Shown piece after piece: positions 733 through 62,322 of a stretch of DNA of 64,000 nt; within the stretch, counting starts at the first letter, position 1; each line of letters begins with the position of its first letter. Where the stretch lies: assembly GCF_013373795.3 (NCBI RefSeq), contig NZ_CP088023.1:62001-126000 (forward strand). Reading direction: 5' to 3'. Made by a program: the position numbers and the translations under genes. This stretch comes from Bradyrhizobium quebecense (GTDB lineage Bacteria; Pseudomonadota; Alphaproteobacteria; Rhizobiales; Xanthobacteraceae). The notes under the pieces are model-generated. The model was not told where the DNA came from and made no database searches. It saw only the letters and a program-made list of their open reading frames with translations.

Positions 733-1536
733 ATGGCAATCGGACGTTTACCATCGTGTCTGGCCGTAACTCTCAAATATGAAGGTGGATACTCGAACGA
801 TCCAAATGATCGGGGGAATTGGACTGGCAAGAAGCGCGGTGTCGGAGTTTTGAAAGGAACGAAATACGGGATCGCCGCTCATGCATATCCGACTCTCGAC
901 ATCAAAAACCTGACGCTTGCTGATGCAGAGTCAATTTATGAAAGAGACTATTGGAACCCAGTGCGCGGTGAGAGCCTCCCTTACGGTGTCGATCTTGCGA
1001 CGTTTGACGCTGGCGTAATGTCCGGACCTCGGCGAGGCGTTCGCTGGTTGCAAGCGGCAGTCGGCGCGAAACAGGACGGCCTTGCCGGAAGCGAGACGAT
1101 TGCGAAGGCGATCGCCGCGAACGGCAAAGCGACCATCCTGCGGATTTGCGCCAAACGGCGAGGTTTTGTGCAATCCCTTTCGTCGAGCAACTTTTTCGGG
1201 AGAGGCTGGTCGCGGCGCATTGCTGAGGTTGAAGCGAAAGCCGTTGCCCTGTGGCTGACGCGCGGGGCCAGCAAGCTAACGGAAGAAGACCGTGCGGAGA
1301 TCAATAACGATAGCATCGCTGCACGAAACAAGGCTGTCGCCCACACGAAGAGCGCGAAGTGGACTTGGTCCGCCGGTGTGGCGCTTGGCGGCGGCGATAC
1401 AATCCTAAGCCGCGGCCCCAACTGGGTCGTGATTGGGATCGTCGCTGTTCTCATGATCAGCGCGGTCGTGCTCTGGAACAAGGCCCGCCACAATAAGGAG
1501 CGAGCCTTGGCTTACGAGGCCGTGGGTGCTCGATGA
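733..1536 (+). CDS. GH108-type muramidase (phage-like lysozyme) with C-terminal membrane segment
   Basis: The 267-aa product has the glycoside hydrolase 108 layout. A catalytic Glu lies in the KYEGGYSNDP motif near residue 18, and the domain core includes YGIAAHAYP, YERDYWNP and FDAGVMSGP. A peptidoglycan-binding half follows to about residue 170. Such enzymes cleave the glycan backbone of peptidoglycan and are used in phage lysis or to open the wall for secretion machines. A hydrophobic helix near residues 230-247 (NWVVIGIVAVLMISAVVLW) would anchor it in the inner membrane, with no signal peptide seen. The ATG at 733 sits just before the conserved domain. The stop overlaps the start of an IS66 gene, so the natural 3' end may have been altered. 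No other phage gene is nearby. Confidence 0.8.
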   Translation: MAIGRLPSCLAVTLKYEGGYSNDPNDRGNWTGKKRGVGVLKGTKYGIAAHAYPTLDIKNLTLADAESIYERDYWNPVRGESLPYGVDLATFDAGVMSGPRRGVRWLQAAVGAKQDGLAGSETIAKAIAANGKATILRICAKRRGFVQSLSSSNFFGRGWSRRIAEVEAKAVALWLTRGASKLTEEDRAEINNDSIAARNKAVAHTKSAKWTWSAGVALGGGDTILSRGPNWVVIGIVAVLMISAVVLWNKARHNKERALAYEAVGAR

Positions 1537-16079: not shown

Positions 16080-16132
16080 GCTCTCTCATCCTGATTGACG
16101 CTCCACTGTCATCCTGATTGCCGCGCAGCAGG
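16080..16132. repeat. solo IS21-family terminal repeat
   Basis: The sequence CTCTCATCCTGATTGACGC followed by TCATCCTGATTGCCGCGC matches the paired terminal motifs at the right end of the IS21 element at 56035-56081. No istA or istB is attached. It truncates the tandem-repeat gene on its right and abuts the IS3 remnant on its left. Confidence 0.75.
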
Positions 16133-18037
16133 CTGCTGACCTTTGATCACCGCTCTCGCCGCCGAGATGATCGCCGGGATCAGAATAGCAGGGTTGATGC
16201 CGAACAGCTTCTGCTCGGTAAGCTGCTGACCTTTGGCAAGGTCACCTGCAATTTGGATCGCGTCGCCACGTAGGCTCTCGTCAAACTCGTTGGGCTGCTG
16301 ACCTTTGATCACCGCCCTCGCCGCCGAGATGATCGCCGGGATCAGAATAGCAGGGTTGATGCCGAACAGCTTCTGCTCGGTAAGCTGCTGACCTTTGGCA
16401 AGGTCACCTGCAATTTGGATCGCGTCGCCACGTAGGCTCTCGTCAAACTCGTTGGGCTGCTGACCTTTGATCACCGCCCTCGCCGCCGAGATGATCGCCG
16501 GGATCAGAATAGCAGGGTTGATGCCGAACAGCTTCTGCTCGGTAAGCTGCTGACCTTTGGCAAGGTCACCTGCAATTTGGATCGCGTCGCCACGTAGGCT
16601 CTCGTCAAACTCGTTGGGCTGCTGACCTTTGATCACCGCCCTCGCCGCCGAGATGATCGCCGGGATCAGAATAGCAGGGTTGATGCCGAACAGCTTCTGC
16701 TCGGTAAGCTGCTGACCTTTGGCAAGGTCACCTGCAATTTGGATCGCGTCGCCACGTAGGCTCTCGTCAAACTCGTTGGGCTGCTGACCTTTGATCACCG
16801 CCCTCGCCGCCGAGATGATCGCCGGGATCAGAATAGCAGGGTTGATGCCGAACAGCTTCTGCTCGGTAAGCTGCTGACCTTTGGCAAGGTCACCTGCAAT
16901 TTGGATCGCGTCGCCACGTAGGCTCTCGTCAAACTCGTTGGGCTGCTGACCTTTGATCACCGCCCTCGCCGCCGAGATGATCGCCGGGATCAGAATAGCA
17001 GGGTTGATGCCGAACAGCTTCTGCTCGGTAAGCTGCTGACCTTTGGCAAGGTCACCTGCAATTTGGATCGCGTCGCCACGTAGGCTCTCGTCAAACTCGT
17101 TGGGCTGCTGACCTTTGATCACCGCCCTCGCCGCCGAGATGATCGCCGGGATCAGAATAGCAGGGTTGATGCCGAACAGCTTCTGCTCGGTAAGCTGCTG
17201 ACCTTTGGCAAGGTCACCTGCAATTTGGATCGCGTCGCCACGTAGGCTCTCGTCAAACTCGTTGGGCTGCTGACCTTTGATCACCGCCCTCGCCGCCGAG
17301 ATGATCGCCGGGATCAGAATAGCAGGGTTGATGCCGAACAGCTTCTGCTCGGTAAGCTGCTGACCTTTGGCAAGGTCACCTGCAATTTGGATCGCGTCGC
17401 CACGTAGGCTCTCGTCAAACTCGTTGGGCTGCTGACCTTTGATCACCGCCCTCGCCGCCGAGATGATCGCCGGGATCAGAATAGCAGGGTTGATGCCGAA
17501 CAGCTTCTGCTCGGTAAGCTGCTGACCTTTGGCAAGGTCACCTGCAATTTGGATCGCGTCGCCACGTAGGCTCTCGTCAAACTCGTTGGGCTGCTGACCT
17601 TTGATCACCGCCCTCGCCGCCGAGATGATCGCCGGGATCAGAATAGCAGGGTTGATGCCGAACAGCTTCTGCTCGGTAAGCTGCTGACCTTTGGCAAGGT
17701 CACCTGCAATTTGGATCGCGTCGCCACGTAGGCTCTCGTCAAACTCGTTGGGCTGCTGACCTTTGATCACCGCCCTCGCCGCCGAGATGATCGCCGGGAT
17801 CAGAATAGCAGGGTTGATGCCGAACAGCTTCTGCTCGGTAAGCTGCTGACCTTTGGCAAGGTCACCTGCAATTTGGTTAGCTTCCCGGGTTGGCTGCTGG
17901 TCATTGTTCTCAGCCGTAATCATCGAGACGATCCCGCGAACTAGACTCGGATGATCTATTCCGAAAGGGTCGCGCTCAAGCTGATATCTCTCTTTAGCTG
18001 TGCCAAGTGACAGTCGAGTAAGCGTAGATGTGTCCAT
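16109..18037 (-). CDS. tandem 54-residue repeat protein next to a caspase-like protease (3' end truncated)
   Basis: The 642-aa reading frame starts at 18037 behind a good AAGGTGAT ribosome site. After a 30-residue leader it consists of eleven almost identical units. Each contains QIAGDLAKGQQLTEQK, then the hydrophobic run LFGINPAILIPAIISAAR, then AVIKGQQPNEFDESLRGDA. The leader holds a worn twelfth copy (DPFGIDHPSLVRGIVSM, then NDQQP). No signal peptide is seen. The hydrophobic run is Ala/Ile/Pro-rich and could be an amphipathic, membrane-active helix. Lys-Gly and Arg-Gly pairs bracket each run, positions a Lys/Arg-specific caspase-like enzyme could cut. It lies 40 bases after the caspase gene in the same direction, so they form an operon. 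The last residues (ARQSG) come from an IS21 end, so the native C-terminus is lost. Function is unknown. Confidence 0.8.
   Translation of the reverse strand: MDTSTLTRLSLGTAKERYQLERDPFGIDHPSLVRGIVSMITAENNDQQPTREANQIAGDLAKGQQLTEQKLFGINPAILIPAIISAARAVIKGQQPNEFDESLRGDAIQIAGDLAKGQQLTEQKLFGINPAILIPAIISAARAVIKGQQPNEFDESLRGDAIQIAGDLAKGQQLTEQKLFGINPAILIPAIISAARAVIKGQQPNEFDESLRGDAIQIAGDLAKGQQLTEQKLFGINPAILIPAIISAARAVIKGQQPNEFDESLRGDAIQIAGDLAKGQQLTEQKLFGINPAILIPAIISAARAVIKGQQPNEFDESLRGDAIQIAGDLAKGQQLTEQKLFGINPAILIPAIISAARAVIKGQQPNEFDESLRGDAIQIAGDLAKGQQLTEQKLFGINPAILIPAIISAARAVIKGQQPNEFDESLRGDAIQIAGDLAKGQQLTEQKLFGINPAILIPAIISAARAVIKGQQPNEFDESLRGDAIQIAGDLAKGQQLTEQKLFGINPAILIPAIISAARAVIKGQQPNEFDESLRGDAIQIAGDLAKGQQLTEQKLFGINPAILIPAIISAARAVIKGQQPNEFDESLRGDAIQIAGDLAKGQQLTEQKLFGINPAILIPAIISAARAVIKGQQPAARQSG
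16133..17880. repeat. 162-bp tandem repeat array, about 11 units
   Basis: Near-identical 162-bp units recur with the landmark GTTGGGCTGCTG at about 16289, 16451, 16613 and so on every 162 bases to about 17747. Differences are very few; for example, the copy nearest 16150 has GCTCTCGCC where the others have GCCCTCGCC. The uniformity implies recent expansion or gene conversion. It is in frame with the coding sequence throughout. Confidence 0.95.
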
Positions 18038-18077
18038 TGTTGATCACCTTGTTGATGTTTGCGGTTGGTTGCGGCTC

Positions 18078-19028
18078 TCAGATCACACTTCTCCGCTGGC
18101 GTGCAAAGGTGATGAAGGAGCGGAGCCGTGTGCCCCCTGGAATCTTAGGTTCCTTTAAAAGAGGCGTCTGGGGAAGCCCGACCCTCCGGATCATTAACTT
18201 CGCGGCGTCCACAAGCTCAGCCAAGCTTGCTCCGGGGCTGAGCGCCTTCAATGAATGGAGAAGGGCAAAGGTAAAGGCCGACTTCCCTTCCGTTAATGCA
18301 GTGCTCGCGGCTGCCGTTTCGGTTTCGAGGCAAGCGGAAAGAAGGACGCCATTTAACTGTAGCTGCCCCGTCTCACCGGACGCGGCCTCCGGCATAGAGG
18401 CCTGCAACCCGGCCAGGGGATCCCGCGAATTCGCCGCGACGGGTGAATTCCGAAGGTAAGTCATCTCACCAAAGCGCTTCTTTGCTATTGCCCTGCCCTG
18501 CCCGTTGGTGTGTTCGAGGAATTTGTCGCCGGTTAAACGCATGTGGGTTTTGACGCGCGCGCGTCCGACTAACCCGGAGTACTTGAACGCCGGCGCCAAC
18601 ATCCGCTTTTCAAGGCCGCCGGAGAAGCAGCAATCGGCAACGAGCGTCAATATTCCGGGCGGCAGGTTCTGCGTCATCTGCGCGAACGTGTTGTCGAAGA
18701 GATAGCCGTCGTAGAGAACAATGCATTCTTGAATGACGAGGCCTCGGAGTGCAGTCGTTCCGTGACCGGAGAAAAAGAAGACCAATCGATCCTCCGGCGA
18801 TACGTCTGCGAAGAGCTCTCGCAAGGCAGCTGTTACATTGCCTACGGTGGCTTCGGAATCGACAAGTCGAACAATGTTGGCGAATCCGTATTGCTTCTTG
18901 AGTACCTCCTCAAAGGCATTAACATCGTTAACACTGCTCGGAAGGTTGTTCGCTGCGCCGTGATAATCGTTGATGCCTACGAGCACCGCCCGGCACCGTT
19001 CGCCTTTGGTGGTGTCAGCTGAATACAC
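18078..19028 (-). CDS. caspase-like cysteine protease (peptidase C14, bacterial metacaspase type)
   Basis: The 316-aa protein starts with GTG at 19028 and has a single caspase fold. It opens with CRAVLVGINDYHG (beta-1) and has the catalytic His at residue 89 in FFFSGHGT and the catalytic Cys at residue 134 in VADCCFSGG. A small-subunit region follows (GVLLSACLETETAAASTALT, then SAFTFALLHSLKAL). There is no signal peptide, membrane helix, NACHT or TPR module, so it is a compact stand-alone protease, probably cytoplasmic. Bacterial members usually cut after Lys or Arg. Its partner is the 54-residue repeat protein 40 bases downstream. A strong promoter with an inverted repeat lies upstream (19134-19194). 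Caspase-like proteins are often linked to programmed death or defence, but this one's role is unknown. Confidence 0.88.
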   Translation of the reverse strand: MYSADTTKGERCRAVLVGINDYHGAANNLPSSVNDVNAFEEVLKKQYGFANIVRLVDSEATVGNVTAALRELFADVSPEDRLVFFFSGHGTTALRGLVIQECIVLYDGYLFDNTFAQMTQNLPPGILTLVADCCFSGGLEKRMLAPAFKYSGLVGRARVKTHMRLTGDKFLEHTNGQGRAIAKKRFGEMTYLRNSPVAANSRDPLAGLQASMPEAASGETGQLQLNGVLLSACLETETAAASTALTEGKSAFTFALLHSLKALSPGASLAELVDAAKLMIRRVGLPQTPLLKEPKIPGGTRLRSFITFARQRRSVI

Positions 19029-19133
19029 TGTACGAACTCACGAAACGGTCAGGTCGGGCGACAGTCAAAGTCTTCTGATGTTCAAACACTACCACTTCCT
19101 GTGAAGCTGGCCTCGTAATGTCTTGTTACTGCG

Positions 19134-19215
19134 ATTATACAGAAGGTCCAAAGGAACGGCCGTGAAACTCGCGTGAAAACGAGGGCAGTTTCACCATCGT
19201 GCGTCAGAGTGGCTC
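19134..19215 (-). promoter_or_regulatory. promoter and inverted-repeat operator of the caspase operon
   Basis: On the minus strand an extended -10 box TGTATAAT lies with TATAAT at 19139-19134. Upstream is the perfect inverted repeat GTGAAACT (19194-19187) and AGTTTCAC (19169-19162). The whole segment is closely conserved at 25945-26060 (plus strand). The conserved palindrome suggests a shared regulator. Confidence 0.65.
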
Positions 19216-25850: not shown

Positions 25851-25944
25851 GGGGGCAACGTCACAGTTCCGCCTCTCGATCTGGGGAAGACGTCGCCATC
25901 TCCCTTTCACCAGACGACTAATTGGAATGGCGCCTGGCTTCACT

Positions 25945-26060
25945 CGTGATCCGCGCTGAGCCGCTCTGACGCACGATGGTGAAACCTGGCTCTCGTTTTT
26001 AACGTGAGTTTCACGGCATTTCCTTCGGATCTTTCTGTATAATCGAGACAACAAGACATT
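25945..26060 (+). promoter_or_regulatory. second copy of the caspase-operon promoter
   Basis: The segment from GCGCTGAGCCGCTCTGACGC through the inverted repeat GTGAAAC (25979-25985) and GTTTCAC (26008-26014) to TGTATAAT (TATAAT at 26038-26043) and AACAAGACATT matches the caspase promoter on the minus strand at 19120-19215. The spacer between the palindrome arms is 22 bases here and 19 there. Identity continues into the leader (TTGAACATCAG). Confidence 0.7.
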
Positions 26061-26088
26061 CTGCGTTCAGCTTCACAGAGGAGTTTCA

Positions 26089-26286
26089 ATGGTTGAACAT
26101 CAGCAGACTTCTACGATCGGCCGACCTGACCGTGGGTTCCCACAGTGGGTCCAAAGCGGGCACCAGCGAAGCCGAACGCAACCAAGGCTGGGCTGTGGAC
26201 GCGGAATCAACGACTATCATGTCCCTGCCATACCTTCCGAGCTATCTTTTAAAGGGCATCGAAATGGCAAACTAAGCAACAAATGA
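26089..26286 (+). pseudogene. relic of a second caspase gene start
   Basis: The leader and first codons line up with the caspase locus: TTGAACATCAG, CGACCTGACCG, then ATCAACGACTATCATG against ATCAACGATTATCACG (the GINDYH codons of the protease), then ACCTTCCGAGC at nearly the same spacing. After about 26255 similarity ends and the catalytic His and Cys regions are absent. The 65-codon frame that remains open is unlikely to be a functional protein. Confidence 0.6.
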
Positions 26287-26317
26287 GACGACAAACACAA
26301 GAGGACACGTCAGCAAA

Positions 26318-26746
26318 ATGCAGAGCGGTTTAGAATTGCTTGCGCAGATCAAATTGAGGCCGAACGGATCGGTTGAAGCGTTTCTAACTGACGTCCGGCC
26401 AGTACTGAGGGCTTTCACAAAGAAAGATAACCCGTTCAAATACAAGAAGCCGGTGAACAAGATTAGTAATGAATGCTACAGATTTGTGATAGGAAGGCTT
26501 GGGCAGGGCGTAGTGAAATCACCATCCGAAGGTGCCGACATTCTAGACAAGCTGGTTTCGGCAGCAATAAACGACAGCGACACTGAATTTCAGGCGCTCA
26601 TCGCAGAGGCATACCAATTGGATGCCAGAGTGGCAGAGGAAACACGAGACGAACCATCGGGAGCGCAAGAGAGGAAGAGAAAGTTGAAGACCGAACCAAC
26701 ATCCACCGATGACGGACAAACGCCCAAGGACCGCATGCAGGAATAA
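26318..26746 (+). CDS. hypothetical 142-aa protein behind the caspase-type promoter
   Basis: I do not recognise this protein. Residues 1-100 are helical and moderately hydrophobic (LELLAQIKLRPNGSVEAFL, YRFVIGRLGQGVV, GADILDKLVSAAIN, EFQALIAEAYQLDARVAEE). The last 40 are charged and low-complexity (GAQERKRKLKTEPTSTDDG). There is no signal peptide or membrane helix. It sits where a downstream partner of the decayed caspase copy would lie, about 270 bases after the conserved -10 box. An IS91-like end follows at once, so downstream genes may have been lost. Confidence 0.5.
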   Translation: MQSGLELLAQIKLRPNGSVEAFLTDVRPVLRAFTKKDNPFKYKKPVNKISNECYRFVIGRLGQGVVKSPSEGADILDKLVSAAINDSDTEFQALIAEAYQLDARVAEETRDEPSGAQERKRKLKTEPTSTDDGQTPKDRMQE

Positions 26747-26791: not shown

Positions 26792-27578
26792 GGTTGAACG
26801 AAGCCGCTGCCGCGGCGTAGGGGGCAAGGTGGCATAGATCGCCTCCTGGCTGAGAGGATGTGGGTGTTGGAGCCCACCCCCTCAGACAGGAGTATCGAGA
26901 TGGCCGATTTGAGCCCTCTTCGCCGCCGCCTGATCGAAGACATGACCGTCCGCAATCTGTCGCCGGCGACGCAAAGATCCTACATCAGCGCGGTTTCGAA
27001 GTTCAGCCGCTATTTTGGCCGATCGCCTGACCGGTTAGAGCTGGAAGACGTCCGCGCCTTCCAGGTGCATTTGGTCTCGACCGGCATCTCATGGCCGGCG
27101 CTGAACCAGATCGTCTGTGCGCTACGGTTTTTCTACGGCGTCACGCTCGGCGAGGCGCTCATCCCAGAGCGCATTCCCTATGCGCGAGAACCGCGCAAGC
27201 TGCCGGTCGTTCTCAGCGCCGACGAAGTGGTTCAGTTTCTTGAAGCGGTATCGAGCCTGAAGAGCCGCGCCGCGCTCACCACCGCCTATGCGGCCGGGCT
27301 CAGGGCCTCGGAGGTTGCGGGACTGCGGATCGAAGACATCGACAGCGCCCGCGGCGTCATCCAGGTGCGCCACGGCAAGGGCGCGAAGGATCGCAACGTG
27401 ATGCTGTCGCCCCAGCTGCTGGGCATCCTGCGCACCTACTGGCGGCTCGCCCGGCCGCGGCTTTATCTGTTCCCTGGTCGTGACGAAGATCATCCGATCG
27501 ATCAGACCGTGCTGCATGCCGCCTGCCGGTCGGCGGTGAAGGCTGCGGGCCTGACCAAGCGCGTCACGCTGCACACGC
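26792..27578 (+). mobile_element. IS91-like element, 5' part only (copy 1)
   Basis: From TTGAACGAAGCCGCTGCC onward the sequence matches the complete copy at 35060-37565 base for base with few changes. It includes the leader and the first about 225 codons of the tyrosine recombinase starting at 26900 behind an AGGAG site. Identity stops at 27578. Here the recombinase frame is uninterrupted as far as it goes, unlike copy 2, but it lacks the catalytic H-x-x-R and Tyr. The open frame runs on by chance into ppk. Confidence 0.88.
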
Positions 27579-27634
27579 CCGCCGGTTTTGCGCATAAGTC
27601 GCAAATTGGGGCGAACTGGATGGATCGACTTCTG

Positions 27635-29827
27635 ATGGACTCTGCGCAAGCTGTTGAAATTAAAGAAAAAGCTCCGGAGACCGAGGGGCTGCCGGCGATT
27701 GCCTCAAGTCCCGAGCGCTTCATCAATCGCGAGCTCTCCTGGCTGCACTTCAACCGCCGCGTCCTCGAGGAAGCGGTCAATCCCAGCCACCCCATGCTGG
27801 AGCGGGTGCGATTCCTGTCGATTTCAGCGAATAACCTCGACGAATTCTTCATGGTCCGCGTCGCCGGCATCAAGGCCCAGATCCGCGAGGGCATCGCCGA
27901 GCGCAGCCCCGACGGCCTGACGCCGTCCGAGCAGCTCGCGCTGATCAACCGCACCGTCTCGCAGCTTGCCTCTGACCAGCAGGCGATCTGGCGCGACCTG
28001 CGCGGCACGCTGGCCGACGTCGGCATCGTGCTGGTCGACGGCAAGGACGTCACCAAGGCGGAACGGACCTGGATCGAGGACTACTTCCTCAACAACGTGT
28101 TTCCGCTGTTGACCCCGCTCGCCATCGACCCGGCTCACCCCTTCCCGTTCATTCCGAGCCTCGGCTTCACCATCGCGCTCCAGCTCACGCGCGCCGCCGA
28201 CGGCAAGCAGATGAACGCGCTGATTCGTATGCCCGGCAAGATCGACCGCTTCATCCGGTTGCCGGCCGAGGGCAAGGTCGTGCGGCTGATCTCGCTCGAG
28301 CAGGCGACCGGGCTGTTCATCAACCGCCTGTTCCCCGGCTACAATCTCCACGGCCAGGGCGCCTTCCGCATCATCCGCGACTCCGAGCTCGAAATCGAGG
28401 AAGAGGCCGAAGACCTCGTCCGCCTGTTCGAGACCGCTCTGAAGCGCCGCCGCCGCGGGTCCGTGATCCGGCTCGAGATCGACGGCAAGATGCCGGAGGA
28501 GCTGCGCAGCTTCGTGCAGCATGCGCTGTCGGCCGCCGACGACGAGGTCTTCCTGGTCGACGGCGTGCTCGCCATGAACGAGCTCTCGCAGCTCACCCGC
28601 CTCGACCGGCCCGATCTCGAATTCACCCCTTACGTGCCGCGCCATCCCGAGCGCGTGCGCGAGCATGGCGGCGACATCTTTGCTGCGATCCGGCAGAAGG
28701 ACCTCGTCGTCCACCATCCCTACGAATCCTTCGACGTGGTCGTGCAGTTCCTGCAGCAGGCCGCCCGCGATCCCGATGTCGTCGCGATCAAGCAGACGCT
28801 GTACCGCACCTCCAACAACTCGCCGATCGTGCGCACGCTGGCGGAAGCCGCCGAAGCCGGCAAGTCCGTCACCGCGCTGATCGAATTGAAGGCGCGCTTC
28901 GACGAGGAGGCCAACATCCGCTGGGCGCGCGACCTCGAACGCGCCGGCGTGCAGGTCGTCTACGGCTTCCTCGAACTGAAGACGCACGCGAAGCTCTCGA
29001 TGGTGGTGCGCCGCGAGGGCGGCGGCCTCACCACTTACGTCCACACCGGCACCGGCAATTATCACCCCGTCACCGCACGTATCTACACCGACCTCTCCTA
29101 CTTCACCTCGGATCCGACCATCGGCCGCGACGCGGCGCGCGTGTTCAACTTCATCACCGGTTATGCCGCGCCGAGCGATCTGGAAAAGATGGCGGTGTCG
29201 CCGCTGACGTTGCGCAAGCGCATCATCGAGCACATCCAGGGCGAGACCGCGCATGCGCGGCATGGCCGACCCGGCGCGGTCTGGATGAAGATGAATGCGC
29301 TGGTCGACCCCGACATCATCGACGCGCTCTACGAGGCCTCACAAGCCGGCGTCCAGGTCGAGCTCGTGGTGCGCGGCATCTGCTGCCTCAGGCCCGGCAT
29401 TCCAGGCCTGTCGGAGAACATCCGCGTCAAGTCGATCATCGGGCGCTTCCTGGAACACGGCCGAATCTACTGCTTCGGCATGGGCCAGGGCCTGCCGAGC
29501 GCGAAAGCGGCTGTGTATATCTCCTCGGCCGACATGATGCCACGCAACCTCGACCGCCGCGTCGAGGTGCTGTGTCCGCTGCAAAATCCCACGGTGCATC
29601 AGCAGGTTCTCGAACAGATCATGGTCGCGAATCTGAAGGACAATGAGCAGAGCTGGCAATTGTTGCCCGACGGGTCCTCGACGCGTATGAAGACCGCGAA
29701 GGGCGAGGAGCCTTTCAACGTCCACAACTACTTCATGACAAATCCGAGTCTATCTGGCCGTGGAAAGTCGCTCAAGGAATCCTCGCCGCGCCGTCTCACG
29801 CGCCGTAATGAACGTCATCAATCTTGA
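27635..29827 (+). CDS. ppk1: polyphosphate kinase 1
   Basis: From the ATG at 27635 ([14 protein letters not shown]) the product is 730 aa, normal for Ppk1, which polymerises the gamma phosphate of ATP into polyphosphate. Visible domains: N domain ([20 protein letters not shown]), head domain, and two phospholipase-D-like C domains. These carry the catalytic His in [14 protein letters not shown] and the second in [16 protein letters not shown]. The frame is open upstream into the IS91-like recombinase, but the ATG at 27635 gives the family's usual N-terminus. The natural promoter may have been replaced by the IS sequence, which ends only 57 bases upstream. Followed 15 bases later by ppx. Confidence 0.95.
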
Positions 29828-39563: not shown

Positions 39564-40142
39564 GTGAAATTCGATACCGACTCAGAGAACGTCAGACCGC
39601 TACTCCGGCTGCGCGTCTTTGGCGCAATGGAGGCTTGGCGCTGGACAGGTGAGAGCGTGCTGCCGCGCGGCCGCAAAGCGCAGGCAATCCTAGCCTATCT
39701 CGCCATGTGCGGAGACTCCACAGTCCCGCGGCGCCGGCTTGCCAGGTTGCTCTGGAGCACGCGCTGGCACGAACAGGCACGAGCCAGTCTCCGGCAAAGC
39801 CTAATGGAGCTGAAGCGAGGCATCGCGATCGCCCCAGAGTTGCTTTGCATCGAAAAAGACCGCGTATCCTTGCAGACCAACAGGGTCTGGATCGATGGGA
39901 TCGGCAGACCCGTCCAAGCTCACCGGTCAACATTCCCGCCTCAGCAGGAGCCCGACACATTTCTGGAGTCGCTGCGTGGCGTCGACACGGCATTCGACCG
40001 GTGGATCGACAGACAGCTGGCGATTTTCGCACAATCGGATGACATAATCAGTCGTCCGTTAAGAAGCCGATTGCAGCGAAGAGTGGTCGCTGATGGCAGC
40101 GATAAGGGTGGCCAGGAAGATGGGCCAAAGAACTCTCTGAAA
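39564..40142 (+). pseudogene. SARP/BTAD-type transcriptional regulator, N-terminal domain only
   Basis: A GTG start behind AGAGGGG gives a product with the winged-helix pattern LLRLRVFGAMEAWRWTGESV, LPRGRKAQAILAYLAMCG and VPRRRLARLLWSTRWHEQAR, then ASLRQSLMELKR. This matches the OmpR-like DNA-binding domain and the start of the BTAD helical domain found in SARP-type and adenylate-cyclase-linked regulators. At about 40142 it runs into the left end of an IS3 (TGGACCCCGATTTTGGGAC), so the C-terminal effector part is missing. The remaining 190 residues could still bind DNA. A scrap of a paralogue lies 1 kb upstream. Confidence 0.7.
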
Positions 40143-40252
40143 TGGACCCCGATTTTGGGACCACGTGCTTAGTTGGAACGGGCCGCTCCGTTTGATAGAC
40201 GGAGGGCATGATGACGAAGACGAGGCGTAAGATCGACGCAGCACTGAAGGCG
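40143..40252 (+). pseudogene. IS3-family left end and OrfA start
   Basis: It begins with the IS3-type terminus TGGACCCCGATTTTGGGAC. A start at 40208 encodes MMTKTRRKIDAALKA, the N-terminus of an IS3 OrfA, and then ends. Confidence 0.75.
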
Positions 40253-57965: not shown

Positions 57966-60900
57966 TCAGCCCCCGAGTCGGTTCTGCAGCGCCTGCCGAT
58001 TGGCAACGAGGCTGCTGAGGTTCAGCAGGTGTGGTGCTCGTCCTTGCTCCAATTGCCTAACCAGCGCCCGCGTGCCGTCCACCACGAAGACGCCGCAATC
58101 ATAAGTGTTCAGCTGCTGGGTCATGCCGCGTGACTCCAGGCGGGCGCCCAGCCTTGCTGCGAGCTCTGCTGCGGGCGTGTTGTTGTATTCCCCCATGGAG
58201 TCGTAGCGATAGGCAACCGGCCTTTCGCGGTCGCGGCGATCAACAAACAGCAACGACCAATGGGTGCCGGGGAGATTCGTAGCACGGGCATTGTTCACTG
58301 GCAGGAACAGGAAGTCGGCTGTGTCGTCACCATTCTGATCATGGACGATGCGCTGGAATGCGCGTAGCATTTCGCTCTCGGTGCCCAAGCGCAGGCTAAC
58401 AAGGGTTATGAGAGGATCCACGAACCGCGTCCGGGCGGCGAGATTCGGATTGTCCCCCCCCAACTCTTGCGCCAGGAGCTGGTAATCTCTCAGGACATGC
58501 TCGTCGCCCAGCCATTCCGTGTCCTCGAGCACCAGCCCGCGGCCGTGAGGCGAGGCTGTCGGACCTAAAGCCCCGATCTGAGCATCGTAGGAGGTGCTCG
58601 GAAACGCCGGCACAGAATTAACATCGTCGCGTGATTCAGACGGCGTGGCCGCAGTCAGATCAACCAACGGAGGACCGCCGTAGGTGCTTGAGCGAACCCT
58701 GGCAGCCTGCGCTGGCTCAAAGTGAGCATCGTCGCGCAACTCGGACGGTGTCGGCGCATTCAGAGCAAGAAATGGCTCAAGACCAGCGTAGATGTCTGAG
58801 GGAGCCCTGGTAGAGTGCGCTGGCGATGCTTCCAGCATCGGCCACATACTCCAATCAAAGTTGAGCGGCATCTGCGGCGACCAGGTTGAGGCGGACCAGG
58901 CAGGTTCCTGCTGTCCAGCTTGGACTATGTCCTGCGCCTGCTCCGGGGGAACCCCGGGCCACGGTGGGCCGTCTTCCACCATCAAACGCAGATCCTGATC
59001 ATAACCTTCCGGGAGGACCAATGGCCGACTGACAGCTCGCTGCGGCGCCGTGGCATCTTGGTACCCACTCCCCTGCATCGTCGGCTGCGCCTGCCATGGC
59101 GATGCACCCAGTTGATGGGTGGGGGCCGACGTCAGCAGGCGACCGCCTGAATTGGCGATCTCGCTCAGCTGCCTCTCAATGGCAAGGCCTTGCAGATTGT
59201 CTAGGGTCCTCGGCCTTTTCGCTGGCCTCAATTCAGCTGTGTCATGCTCATCGTTGATGACGACCTCCTCGCTTGGCAGGAGGTTGCTCTTGGCAAGTGC
59301 ACCGATCGGCTCGTCCGGGAACTGCTGGCGGTCGTAGCCCCAGTTCAAGGGACGAATGGACTCTCCGGGATCCGATGACTGGTCATGGCGCGCGGCTGGC
59401 TCAAGAAGAGATGACGACGGGCCGGGTTCGTCCATCAGCTCCCAAAGCAAATCCTGATCGTAGCCTTCTACAGGAAGCAGCTCCTTTGGCCAACTGCCCG
59501 CGTCCTGCGACGCGCTGTGCTGCGCAGCGGCGCCGCCGACGGGCATCGGCTCCATCAGTGCCGCGTCTTCGGGATCAGGAACGGGGGAAATATGGCGCTC
59601 GCGCTCCATCGCTTTAGCGCCGGCCTGCGATTTCCGGAGATCAGCCAGTGCGGCACCGATATTCCGATTACCCCCGGCGTCCTTCCTATAGCTCTCGACA
59701 TCTCCATCCAACGCCTTGCCGGAAAGCCGAGCAGAAATGCCCTTCTTGTTATTTTCACGCAGGTAGTCACTGAAACTGTTAAGAACAACTGCATAGGTAC
59801 GTACGGTACCTGTCGCAGCTTTGTTTTTGTACTCTTTGATGAGAGCCACGTCCTGGGGATAAGGATTCAGCTTAGCGCGGCCTGCGATCGGCACGATCCC
59901 GCCCGTCGACTGCGAGGTCCGGAGATGATCTATTGCCGCAAGGAGTTTCGCGGGATCACCCTTTCCGATGAACTCGCGCGCATCAATGGTCAACGACTCG
60001 TCGTCGAGCCGAGCAGCAATGCCCTTTTTGTCATTTTCGAAGAGCCAGCGGCCAAACCTGCGAAGAGAACCTGCATAATCCTTGGTGGTGGCTTCAGCGG
60101 CCCCGCCCTTGATGAGGGCCTCCTCAAGCTCCGAAATAAGGGGAGCGTCCTCGGAATAAAGAGGCTGCTTCCTGCGAACCCCAGTTGATCGAGCCGGCTG
60201 CAGCGCCGAGGACGGCGGGCCGGGTTCGTCCATCAGCCCCCAAAGCAAATCCTGATCGTGGGCTTCCGCAGGAAGCAGCTCCTCTGGCCAACTGCCAGCT
60301 TCCTGCGACGCGCGGTGCTCCGCAGCGGCGTCGCCGACCCGCCTCGGCTCCGTCAGGGCCGCGTCTTCGGGATCAGGAAAGGGGGAAATATGGCGCTCGA
60401 GCTCCATCGCCTTAGCGCCGGCCGACGATTTTCGGAGATGGGTCAGTGCGGCACCGATATTCCGATTACCCCCGGCGGCGTCTTTCCTATAGCTCTCGAC
60501 ATCTCCATCCAACGCCTTGCCGGAAAGCCGAGCAGCAATGCCCTTCTTGTTGTTTTCACGCAGGTAGTCACTGAAACTGTTAAGAACAACTGCATAGGTA
60601 CTGGCGGTACCTGTCGTTGCTTCGTTTTTGTACTCTTTGATGAGAGCCGCGTCCTTGGGATACGGATTCAGCTTAGCGCGGTCTGCGATCGGCACGATTC
60701 CGCCCGTCGACTGCGAGGTCCGGAGATGATCTATTGCCTTAAGGAGTCTCGTGGGATTACCCTTTCCGAAGAACTCGCGCGCATCAATGGTCAACGACTC
60801 GTCGTCGAGCCGAGCAGCAATGGACTCTTTGTTATTTGCGACAAGCCAGCGGCCAAAGCTGCGAAGAGAATATACATTGGCCTTGGCGCTGATTTCGGTG

Positions 60901-62087
60901 GCCCCGCTCTTGATGAGGGCCTTCTCAAGCCCCGAAATAAGGGGACCATCCTCGGAATAAAGTGGCTGCTTCCTCTGCCTTCTCAAAACTCCAGTTGACT
61001 GAGCCGGCTGCAGCGCCGAGTGCGACGGACCGGGTTCGTCCATCAGCCCCAAAACCAAATCCTGATCGTAGCCTTCTGCAGGAAGCTTCTCTGGCCAACT
61101 GCCAGCTTCCTGCGACGCGCGGTGCTCCGCAGCGGCGTCGCTGACCCGCCTCGGCTCCATCAGGGCCGCGCGTTCGGGATCAGGACCGGGAGAAATATGG
61201 CGCTCGAGCTCCATCGCTTTAGCGCCGGCCCGCGATTTTCGGAGATGAGCCAGTGCGGCACCGATCCGCCTATTACCACCGACGTCCTTCTTATAGTCTC
61301 CGACATCTCCATCCAACGCCTTGCCGGAAAGCCGAGCAGCAATGCCCTTCTTGTTGTTTTTACGCAGGTAGTCACTGAAACTGCTAAGGGTAAATGCATA
61401 GGTACTGACGGTACCTGTCGTTGCTTCGTTTTTGTACTCTTCGATGAGAGCCGCGTCCTGGGGATAAGGATTCAGCTTAGCGCGGTCTGCGATCGGCACG
61501 ATTCCGCCCGTCGACTGCGAGGTCCGGAGATGACCTATTGCCGTAAGGAGTCTCGTGGGATTACCCTTTCCGAAGAACTCGCACGCATCAACGGTCAACG
61601 ACTCGTCGTCGAGCCGAGCAGCAATGGCCTGCTTTTTGTTTTCAAAGAGCCAGCGGCCCAATCTAAGAAGATGACCTACATTCTCCTTGGCAGTGCGTTT
61701 GACAGCCCCCCCTTTGATGAGGGCCTCCTCAAGCCCCAAAATAAGGTCAGCATCTTGGGAATAAAGAGGACGCCTGCGGGTACCGTAAACCTCTGCTGAC
61801 TGGCCAGGCTGCAGCGCCGAGGCGCCTGGCATTGGCCCGCCGCCTCCATCCTGCGACGCTGGAGGGCATTCGTGCCCGCTCGCCTGCATGATGGGCTGCG
61901 CCTCCGATGGCGATGCGGCGACTTGATGGGGGGGGGTCTGCATCAGCACACCATCACCTGGACGGGTGATCTCGCTTAGCTGCCGCTCAAAGGCCGCCGC
62001 GTCTGTCGACGGGGACACCGGTGCAGTCTCTTGCTGGGCGGCGCTGTTCGATTGTTGCTGCAGTCGGCTAGTTGAGGTGAAATCCAT
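57966..62087 (-). CDS. nopD: NopD/Bel2-5-type type III effector with Ulp1 (C48) SUMO-protease domain
   Basis: The 1373-aa protein has no classical signal peptide. Its N-terminus is Ser/Gln-rich (TSTSRLQQQSNSAAQQE), as type III signals are. Three repeat units of about 265 residues (about 105-370, 371-635, 636-900) each hold two helical modules resembling integrase SAM-like domains, with shared blocks LDDESLTIDAREF and HLRTSQSTGGIVPIADRAKL. A nuclear-localisation-like KRPR lies near residue 955. The C-terminal 200 residues are a C48 protease with His1276 (GTHWSLLFVD), Asp1296 (YRYDSMG), Gln1325 and Cys1331 (NTYDCGVFVVDG). Known NopD/XopD-family proteins remove SUMO from plant proteins in the host nucleus. 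A tts box lies about 200 bases upstream. The reading frame is complete. Confidence 0.9.
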   Translation of the reverse strand: MDFTSTSRLQQQSNSAAQQETAPVSPSTDAAAFERQLSEITRPGDGVLMQTPPHQVAASPSEAQPIMQASGHECPPASQDGGGGPMPGASALQPGQSAEVYGTRRRPLYSQDADLILGLEEALIKGGAVKRTAKENVGHLLRLGRWLFENKKQAIAARLDDESLTVDACEFFGKGNPTRLLTAIGHLRTSQSTGGIVPIADRAKLNPYPQDAALIEEYKNEATTGTVSTYAFTLSSFSDYLRKNNKKGIAARLSGKALDGDVGDYKKDVGGNRRIGAALAHLRKSRAGAKAMELERHISPGPDPERAALMEPRRVSDAAAEHRASQEAGSWPEKLPAEGYDQDLVLGLMDEPGPSHSALQPAQSTGVLRRQRKQPLYSEDGPLISGLEKALIKSGATEISAKANVYSLRSFGRWLVANNKESIAARLDDESLTIDAREFFGKGNPTRLLKAIDHLRTSQSTGGIVPIADRAKLNPYPKDAALIKEYKNEATTGTASTYAVVLNSFSDYLRENNKKGIAARLSGKALDGDVESYRKDAAGGNRNIGAALTHLRKSSAGAKAMELERHISPFPDPEDAALTEPRRVGDAAAEHRASQEAGSWPEELLPAEAHDQDLLWGLMDEPGPPSSALQPARSTGVRRKQPLYSEDAPLISELEEALIKGGAAEATTKDYAGSLRRFGRWLFENDKKGIAARLDDESLTIDAREFIGKGDPAKLLAAIDHLRTSQSTGGIVPIAGRAKLNPYPQDVALIKEYKNKAATGTVRTYAVVLNSFSDYLRENNKKGISARLSGKALDGDVESYRKDAGGNRNIGAALADLRKSQAGAKAMERERHISPVPDPEDAALMEPMPVGGAAAQHSASQDAGSWPKELLPVEGYDQDLLWELMDEPGPSSSLLEPAARHDQSSDPGESIRPLNWGYDRQQFPDEPIGALAKSNLLPSEEVVINDEHDTAELRPAKRPRTLDNLQGLAIERQLSEIANSGGRLLTSAPTHQLGASPWQAQPTMQGSGYQDATAPQRAVSRPLVLPEGYDQDLRLMVEDGPPWPGVPPEQAQDIVQAGQQEPAWSASTWSPQMPLNFDWSMWPMLEASPAHSTRAPSDIYAGLEPFLALNAPTPSELRDDAHFEPAQAARVRSSTYGGPPLVDLTAATPSESRDDVNSVPAFPSTSYDAQIGALGPTASPHGRGLVLEDTEWLGDEHVLRDYQLLAQELGGDNPNLAARTRFVDPLITLVSLRLGTESEMLRAFQRIVHDQNGDDTADFLFLPVNNARATNLPGTHWSLLFVDRRDRERPVAYRYDSMGEYNNTPAAELAARLGARLESRGMTQQLNTYDCGVFVVDGTRALVRQLEQGRAPHLLNLSSLVANRQALQNRLGG
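59380..61775. repeat. three long internal repeats in the effector gene
   Basis: Units starting near 61775, 60975 and 60175 on the minus strand, each about 800 bp, are highly alike at the DNA level. One shared string is GGCACGATyCCGCCCGTCGA, and the CCTTGCCGGAAAGCCGAGCA block is also found in each. They encode paired helical modules. Confidence 0.9.
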
Positions 62088-62287: not shown

Positions 62288-62322
62288 GCTATGAGAGGAA
62301 GCTGTCGAGTACCTGACGAGCG
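62288..62322 (-). promoter_or_regulatory. tts box (TtsI-binding site) of the effector gene
   Basis: On the minus strand the bases CTCGTCAGGTACTCGACAGC followed by TTCCTCTCATAG fit the rhizobial tts-box pattern (GTCAG..T.TCGA.AGCT). The site is about 200 bases before the effector ATG and in the right direction. It implies induction by the flavonoid-NodD-TtsI cascade (known for such boxes). Confidence 0.75.

Follow-up and report, generated by a model that had tools for sequence, protein, structure and literature searches.

A caspase-like protease paired with a hydrophobic-helix repeat protein in Bradyrhizobium quebecense, and relatives that suggest a link with a wall-cutting enzyme in a self-lysis module

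The window analysed here is a stretch of 64,000 nucleotides from Bradyrhizobium quebecense (contig NZ_CP088023.1, positions 62,001 to 126,000 of the forward strand), part of a 187-kb contig (C2) in a 9.17-Mb genome (G000, the source genome), with close kin among Bradyrhizobium plasmids. On its reverse strand a gene for a C14 caspase-like protease is followed after 40 bp by a gene for a protein of tandem hydrophobic helices, and the genes adjoining this pair are insertion sequences and transposases:

18078..19028, minus strand: C14 caspase-like protease, 316 aa, GTG start (Pfam match, His89/Cys134 dyad)
16109..18037, minus strand: repeat protein, 642 aa, ATG start (diverged first part, then 11 motif copies)
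16131..17876, minus strand: tandem array, 162-bp unit x 10.8 (Tandem Repeats Finder (TRF), 99% matches)
19029..19215, minus strand: region upstream of the pair, conserved; direct repeat TTTCACG-N4-TTTCACG at 19161-19178, TATAAT-like box

An earlier note on this DNA had described the two genes as a protease and repeat pair 40 bp apart, and the open reading frames (ORFs), the PF00656 score and the TRF array all agree with this. The same pair is found on three other plasmids and in Bradyrhizobium relatives, so it is no chance arrangement. The note had extended the unit to 19215; positions 19029-19215 are instead the upstream region, which is conserved with the Sinorhizobium (S.) meliloti plasmid.

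The protease matched Pfam PF00656 at 80.4 bits (cut-off 21.4), which places it in C14, where it belongs to a distinct subfamily with most sampled members fused to helical tails. The source genome holds 14 C14 matches. His89 and Cys134 are invariant in all 13 aligned rows, window included. The closest solved structures by profile are plant metacaspases 4 and 9 (AtMC4 and AtMC9), and Foldseek also led to plant metacaspases from an AlphaFold2 model of the chromosomal relative, in which 24 of the 29 ten-residue blocks of residues 31-320 had a pLDDT (predicted local distance difference test) of at least 70. The equivalents of AtMC4 Ser84 and Asp137 are kept in 13/13 rows. Ca-dependent metacaspases have an acidic Ca-binding loop; an acidic AtMC4 loop after the catalytic His is an insertion relative to the family profile and is absent in the alignment. 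Between the window and S. meliloti the caspase has a dN (nonsynonymous rate) of 0.064 and a dS (synonymous rate) of 0.118 (dN/dS 0.54), with the dyad intact. The S. meliloti and B. neotropicale (L030) caspase ORFs have an earlier start and carry a leader with EHQ in it; the window has a related stretch in another frame (19028-19110, minus strand), and its ORF starts at the GTG at 19028.

The repeat protein contains 11 copies of the motif EQKLFGINPAILIPAIISAARAVIKGQQ (QKLFG motif). Each full unit consists of this motif followed by a second helix around DAIQIAGDLAKG and measures 54 aa, or 162 bp. The ten full units are identical in DNA; the final unit is incomplete, differs from them by one change within the motif, and then passes into a different tail. 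The earlier description of a protein made almost only of 54-residue repeats holds for the 11 motif copies and fails for a diverged first part of about 58 aa; the Lys-Gly and Arg-Gly pairs that it placed around the hydrophobic segment are present. AlphaFold2 predicted separate helices, two main ones per unit (mean pLDDT 36, three-sequence alignment), and for a fused relative a string of mostly ~24-residue helices with a pLDDT below 50. A solenoid with a buried core is absent from the repeat model, whose very low confidence means that it neither shows nor excludes one. Lys or Arg flanked the helix on both sides in 47 of 61 units (21% expected from composition), counted at fixed offsets around Pro in units that are not independent within one protein. 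The units of the window, S. meliloti and L037 were scored as misses because their first Lys is 3 residues nearer; they have Lys on both sides nonetheless. Such basic flanks fit a Lys-specific protease and, equally, any membrane helix.

Repeat units compared between the window and S. meliloti gave a dN of 0.072-0.090 and a dS of 0.041-0.084 from few changes, so that no purifying selection on the unit is visible at this distance. The repeat frame is open in 4/4 plasmids, at 16, 11, 8 and 5 copies. Matches of the repeat protein in Pfam, NCBIfam and PHROGs were rejected as sums over repeats, with 0 stretches passing alone. A linaridin-type precursor of ribosomally synthesised and post-translationally modified peptides (NF033752, 50.9 bits) was discarded likewise (0 stretches passing alone; adjoining genes caspase and transposases). 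No holin family was matched, the five PHROGs matches (0 stretches passing in each) being taken as repeat artefacts, and neither Pfam nor PADLOC gave a gasdermin or nuclease match.

The three other plasmids with the pair are pBb38S5b, pBs28S5b and S. meliloti M270 accessoryB (L017, L018 and L019). They hold 16, 8 and 5 motif copies, respectively, compared to 11 in the window, and the S. meliloti pair has 84.5% identity over the first 110 aa. A separate repeat gene also lies beside the caspase in B. neotropicale (L030 and L033; genome G310 is identical to L033) and B. centrolobii (L032), which are 99.9-100% identical at the locus and were counted once, and a distant version occurs in P. sabiae. 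The L030 repeat protein has one clear unit only, which speaks against a need for many copies. Conserved co-occurrence, which had been set beforehand as a test of the proposed unit, was borne out by these two-gene orthologues together with fusions in distant taxa. Phage records searched for relatives gave one partial match, and viral contigs gave 11 loci, ten of them partial (L064 covers residues 14-295 at 27%). In the phylum search only G000 had a full-length match, those in the other 7 genomes being N-terminal only.

Two strict peptide patterns, run against 84,980 species genomes, yielded 31 loci. Of these, 13 (L032-L044) match the caspase over almost its full length, at 33-55% identity; in L046 the match spans residues 6-292 at 22%. 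In 10 of the 13 (L034, L035, L037-L044) a helix-rich tail is part of the same chain, and in L036 (Nostoc) the caspase has another C-terminus. Relatives of the caspase occur in cyanobacteria, Planctomycetota and Verrucomicrobiota, and fused forms in cyanobacteria, Verrucomicrobiota, Cupriavidus, Bradyrhizobium and on the source genome's own chromosome (L031). The cyanobacterial search was positive in 5 of 242 genomes (L041's own among these), and L104-L107 add fused cases. Tail units follow a pattern of an acidic-Lys-aromatic start, a hydrophobic helix with Pro (55/55 distinct units, the same units on which the hidden Markov model (HMM) was trained) and often then Lys-Gly/Asp-Tyr-Gln. A 54-aa unit of the window type is fused to a caspase in L037, a Verrucomicrobiales metagenome-assembled genome (MAG) whose contig ends inside the array (BLASTP E 2e-8, single comparison). 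The window unit is putatively linked with the generic fused repeats by way of L037 and L030.

The two-gene pair of P. sabiae aligns with a single fused protein from Cupriavidus across 75% of its length (E 5e-80). In a 22-row tree, with outgroup rows all from one genome and on long branches, the subfamily formed one clade (support 100/100), with P. sabiae and the fused protein from Cupriavidus as sisters (98/97) and the fused L037 and L039 adjoining (84/84) the clade that holds the window (100/99). The well-supported branches require a minimum of two changes between the fused and the two-gene state. The pairing of protease and helices is an old one, and its occurrence as one chain in some lineages and as two adjacent genes in others is strong evidence that protease and helices work together.

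Motif counts were compared with 500 shuffles for each of 24 rows. No shuffle reached the count in L031, L034, L035, L041, L043, L105 and L106 or in the arrays of the window, L017 and L018; 1 to 41 shuffles did so in L039, L040, L102, L103, L107 and L019, and 104 to 500 in L037, L038, L042, L044, L036, L104, L020 and L030. The repeat label of the L042 tail is unproven, with a motif count in the shuffle range and no HMM match. Control C14 loci (n = 19) included 3 without a closed ORF; the other 16 had 0 or 1 motif match, and 3 of these a tail of at most 24 residues.

Several genes near the fused forms were recorded. In the Eremiobacterota locus L102 (6625-9649) a lone helical-repeat ORF (308 aa) is followed by a 608-aa ORF that resembles SLOG/SLATT by eye and has no Pfam match; no caspase is among the neighbouring ORFs shown, and a fused copy lies elsewhere in that genome. 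A small Cys-rich protein without a Pfam match follows the fused caspase/repeat frames in two Bradyrhizobium MAGs (L035:10073-10456 and L103:4623-5024, 68% identical). The gene after the chromosomal fused caspase (L031:10760-11566) has an HExxH-like motif by eye, and pieces of a relative follow the Cupriavidus fused gene.

Two further genes of the window have relatives at the two-gene loci:

733..1536, plus strand: GH108 endolysin-type muramidase, 267 aa, with a C-terminal hydrophobic helix (KD19 2.38)
39564..40172, plus strand: SARP-like regulator, 202 aa, 68% identity over 158 residues to the L030 gene

The window muramidase matched the PHROGs endolysin family phrog_315 (E 1.8e-48), as the endolysin of a lysis cassette would. 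Its S. meliloti counterpart lies 0.7 kb after the repeat gene and, used as a TBLASTN query, matched the window at 718-1257 (80.6%) and L030/L032 (65%). The L030 GH108, which is 70% identical to that of the window, is located 3.8 kb after the repeat gene. In the 8.7 Mb of G310 there is a single GH108 match, at a distance of 3.8 kb from the repeat gene, and G000 has two, one of them on the window plasmid. Across 72,556 plasmid records at 60% identity or more, caspase, GH108 and regulator were each found in 3 records, always the same three, two of which are closely related, and these counts may leave out the window's own record. A close GH108 was present in 3 of 265 Bradyrhizobium genomes, all three with an orthologous caspase. 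Among 161 Bradyrhizobium genomes two more had caspase matches at 42-43% in long frames, of the fused type. The next-best GH108 genes (n = 3) lie by phage tail genes, adjoining a 3TM holin and in an unannotated stretch.

Other wall-cutting enzymes were found beside more distant members. In P. sabiae a PF11860/phrog_1224 muramidase follows at 1.4 kb, separated from the pair by a transposase; L041 has a phrog_181 endolysin 217 bp downstream (E 3.5e-26; no Pfam match); and in L042, a Planctomycetota MAG, an endolysin-like N-terminal part is fused to the caspase chain. Among the neighbours at 15 loci, 24 distinct ORFs or pieces were scanned, 10 of them against PHROGs and 20 against Pfam, and gave no further endolysins. 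When four endolysins and the L042 N-terminus served as TBLASTN queries on 26 loci, the matches were confined to the named GH108 genes and the queries themselves.

The regulator is called SARP-like because its homologues are annotated as BTAD/SARP regulators at 36-40% identity; Pfam gave nothing above the cut-off. Its gene sits between the repeat gene and GH108 in L030, and a relative that is not annotated lies ~28 kb from the caspase in S. meliloti. The fused caspases L034 and L035 likewise have BTAD regulators in front of them. In B. neotropicale and B. centrolobii caspase, repeat gene, regulator and GH108 lie within 6 kb, and compared to this compact locus the window version appears scattered among insertion sequences. 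The earlier note had proposed a membrane-active or lytic role without connecting these genes to the pair; the endolysin and regulator partners now lend that role independent support.

SARP proteins bind heptamer repeats at 11-bp spacing, a pattern that the TTTCACG direct repeat upstream of the caspase would fit. This repeat also occurs upstream of the caspase in L017, L018, L019, L030, L032 and L033. A search of 50-350 bp stretches for a promoter motif shared by the caspase, GH108 and regulator genes gave nothing consistent, and the TTTCACG repeat was not found before GH108 or the regulator. The region is partly duplicated in the window:

25942..26746, plus strand: duplicate of the caspase promoter/leader plus a short caspase-start remnant (about 26089-26248), conserved on the same three plasmids

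This stretch is 88% identical in S. meliloti and carries a one-mismatch copy of the TTTCACG repeat at 25998-26015, together with the copied caspase leader. A 142-aa ORF (26318-26746, plus strand) with no Pfam match follows and is possibly a co-regulated gene.

Elsewhere in the window, a single 989-aa ORF (26858-29827, plus strand) joins a phage-type integrase to a full polyphosphate kinase. A 1373-aa protein with a C-terminal C48 (Ulp1-like) protease domain (57966-62087, minus strand) looks like the product of a rhizobial type III effector gene; ~210 bp upstream, at 62301-62317 (minus strand), is a tts-box-like site with 1 mismatch to what we take to be the consensus. Next to the S. meliloti locus (L019:9513-11168) lies a protein with an F-box-like start (E 0.009, below the cut-off) followed by LAPELQQRL repeats, with relatives on Bradyrhizobium, Mesorhizobium and Xanthomonas plasmids.

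These relatives suggest that the pair is linked with a wall-cutting enzyme in a self-lysis module. As read from sequence, there is an intact-dyad caspase, a hydrophobic Pro-containing helix partner and co-inheritance with a muramidase and a SARP-like regulator; from this we infer an action of the caspase on the helices, release, harm to the membrane and lysis as the outcome. We tentatively favour, at somewhat less than an even chance, a regulated self-lysis (cell-suicide) module: the helix array, acted on by the caspase, would supply the membrane step, and the endolysin would cut the wall. A stress or invader signal would act through the SARP-like regulator at the TTTCACG repeats and raise or activate the caspase, which would act on the helix array in cis in the fused forms and in trans here. 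This action would free or expose ~22-residue cationic helices that could insert in the inner membrane and do a holin's job, after which the GH108 endolysin would cut the wall and the cell would lyse; tandem amplification (5 to 16 copies) may raise the dose per protein. A fuller version, which we consider more doubtful, is a caspase-operated lysis cassette. Identical pro-peptide helices, strung together in a tandem polyprotein, would be the storage form of the holin; a caspase devoted to this task would release them in large numbers, and they would act together with an endolysin, controlled by a SARP-like regulator. The number of copies in the array would decide what dose is lethal, and the caspase-helix fusions of other phyla would represent the same design, in one Planctomycetota MAG with an endolysin-like module in the caspase chain. 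The same facts also fit lysis for protein release instead of suicide.

A number of observations weigh against self-lysis. The assumed cleavage after Lys/Arg, which the earlier note took from metacaspase-type enzymes in general, is undercut on the side of the protease and on that of the repeats. In AtMC4, according to the parts of PMC7206013 drawn on here, Ser84, Asp137, Asp352 and Ser350 make up the pocket that receives the Lys at which the enzyme cleaves itself, and Ala at Ser84, Asp137 or Asp352 abolishes self-cleavage, unlike a change at Ser350. The profile alignment of the protease with AtMC4, from which these positions were mapped, gives Ala at the equivalents of both Ser350 and Asp352 in 13/13 rows, so that 2 of the 4 residues of the full pocket of Lys/Arg-specific metacaspases are kept and a Lys/Arg preference is doubtful. 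The shortest orthologous repeat protein (L030) is without Lys/Arg directly beside the helix. Unit hydrophobicity (KD19 1.66) is borderline for a transmembrane helix, and in both structure models the repeats are predicted with low confidence. A generic HMM built without the window unit scored it at 3.8 bits, which 23 of 2000 shuffles reach. Shared plasmid ancestry and the near-identity of L030/L033 and L032 mean that the co-occurrence counts are not independent. The window GH108 lies 14.6 kb from the pair on the opposite strand; at 11 of the 13 fused-form loci no endolysin turned up among a small selection of adjoining ORFs; and of three fused-form genomes with a GH108 gene (G785, G1179 and G780) the contigs were compared in the first two, where GH108 is on another contig than the caspase.

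The main rival of the self-lysis module is a scaffold or recruitment array, in which the helices bind each other or the caspase, cluster it and activate it by proximity, the true substrate being elsewhere. We regard this as improbable, though it deserves serious weight: the repeats are usually covalently fused to the caspase, as expected of a recruitment domain, copy number varies with the pair kept, and a stand-alone repeat ORF occurs in an Eremiobacterota genome that also has a fused copy. However, a folded interaction domain was not predicted by the low-confidence models, the repeat protein has no Pfam match with a stretch passing alone, and the endolysin partners are left unexplained. The last point also counts against a membrane tether, a reading in which tandem amphipathic helices would do no more than anchor the caspase at the membrane or coat it, apolipoprotein-like, with nothing released. 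Tandem hydrophobic helices with basic flanks and the commonness of fused forms would suit a tether, but the two-gene array is a separate protein without a recognised caspase-binding part, and we consider it unlikely.

Nearly the same low probability attaches, slightly lower if anything, to neutral expansion, by which minisatellite growth in a decaying gene on a plasmid rich in insertion sequences would have produced copies without present function. Ten identical units do mark a recent expansion, the unit dN is close to its dS between the window and S. meliloti (few changes), and the neighbours are insertion sequences; against this stand the frame kept open in 4/4 plasmids, partner and unit conserved over long distances by fusion, a caspase dN/dS of 0.54 with an intact dyad and co-inheritance with GH108 and the regulator. 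Least probable, to the point of being very unlikely, is a host-directed effector pair exported into plant cells by a rhizobial secretion system. The plasmid carries the C48-protease gene with its tts-box-like site, the F-box-like repeat protein adjoins the S. meliloti locus, and the four named two-gene plasmids came from root nodules (3) and Medicago truncatula (1), but relatives of the caspase occur in cyanobacteria, Planctomycetota and Verrucomicrobiota. A type III effector was rejected since no tts-box-like site within 2 mismatches lies upstream in the window (near 19028), L019 or L030.

Bacterial caspases are common, and to our knowledge few of their substrates and execution steps have been identified. 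For the self-lysis module proposed here, the likely substrate or partner either has its gene adjacent to that of the caspase or is part of the caspase chain; it has a simple, repetitive make-up and is accompanied by an endolysin. How a bacterial caspase kills a cell can thereby be put to a direct test with three small genes of a soil symbiont. If the proposal is true, apoptosis-type proteases would be joined to phage-type lysis machinery.

Among known systems, orthocaspases and metacaspases (C14B; AtMC4, AtMC9) share the caspase fold, the His/Cys dyad and the Ser84 and Asp137 equivalents with the protease, which differs from AtMC4 by Ala for Asp352/Ser350, the lack of an acidic loop after His and the helical-repeat tail or partner. 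PROPEP1 is a plant precursor and not a tandem array. As far as it is described in the sections of PMC7206013 used, plant metacaspase-4/PROPEP1 resembles the proposed mechanism in that a metacaspase cuts a peptide precursor, and differs from the tandem hydrophobic helices in bacteria and the altered S1 pocket found here. Phage-type holin-endolysin cassettes, which are also used for protein release under a PhoB-like regulator (PMC10101115, in part), likewise combine an endolysin, a hydrophobic partner and a DNA-binding regulator; compared to that account, the repeat protein has no holin family match and a caspase is in the set.

The EACC1-caspase two-gene conflict system (PMC7159879; NF047832), as outlined in the portion of that source consulted, is alike in its two genes, constant caspase, proposed membrane link and diverse C-terminal fusions. 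The window protease reached 59.2 bits against a cut-off of 140 for the EACC1-type caspase model NF047832, no EACC1-type gene is adjacent (the neighbours are the repeat protein and insertion sequence elements) and the caspase comes first here, so we do not place it among EACC1-associated caspases. The gasdermin-protease and canu caspase-nuclease systems are caspase-activated bacterial death systems (PMC12799240, excerpted) and have in common with the window a protease adjoining a potential pro-toxin that the caspase would activate. Relative to that excerpt, the partner here is a hydrophobic-helix array and the set includes a SARP-like regulator and an endolysin. No bacterial gasdermin was matched by Pfam or PADLOC, which compare by sequence only, and the adjoining genes encode the repeat protein and transposases rather than the canu partner (the Ig-like domain of CanA was not searched for).

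The searches made of the open-access literature brought up no account of a caspase that carries such helical repeats or is associated with phage-type endolysins, in agreement with the earlier note, which knew of no described system with this layout; the nearest described case, from what was seen of PMC3501461, is one amidase in a Geobacter metacaspase operon. Protease-activated death effectors beside a caspase are, on the excerpt of PMC12799240, already known, and the system proposed here would be categorically new only if the released-holin model holds.

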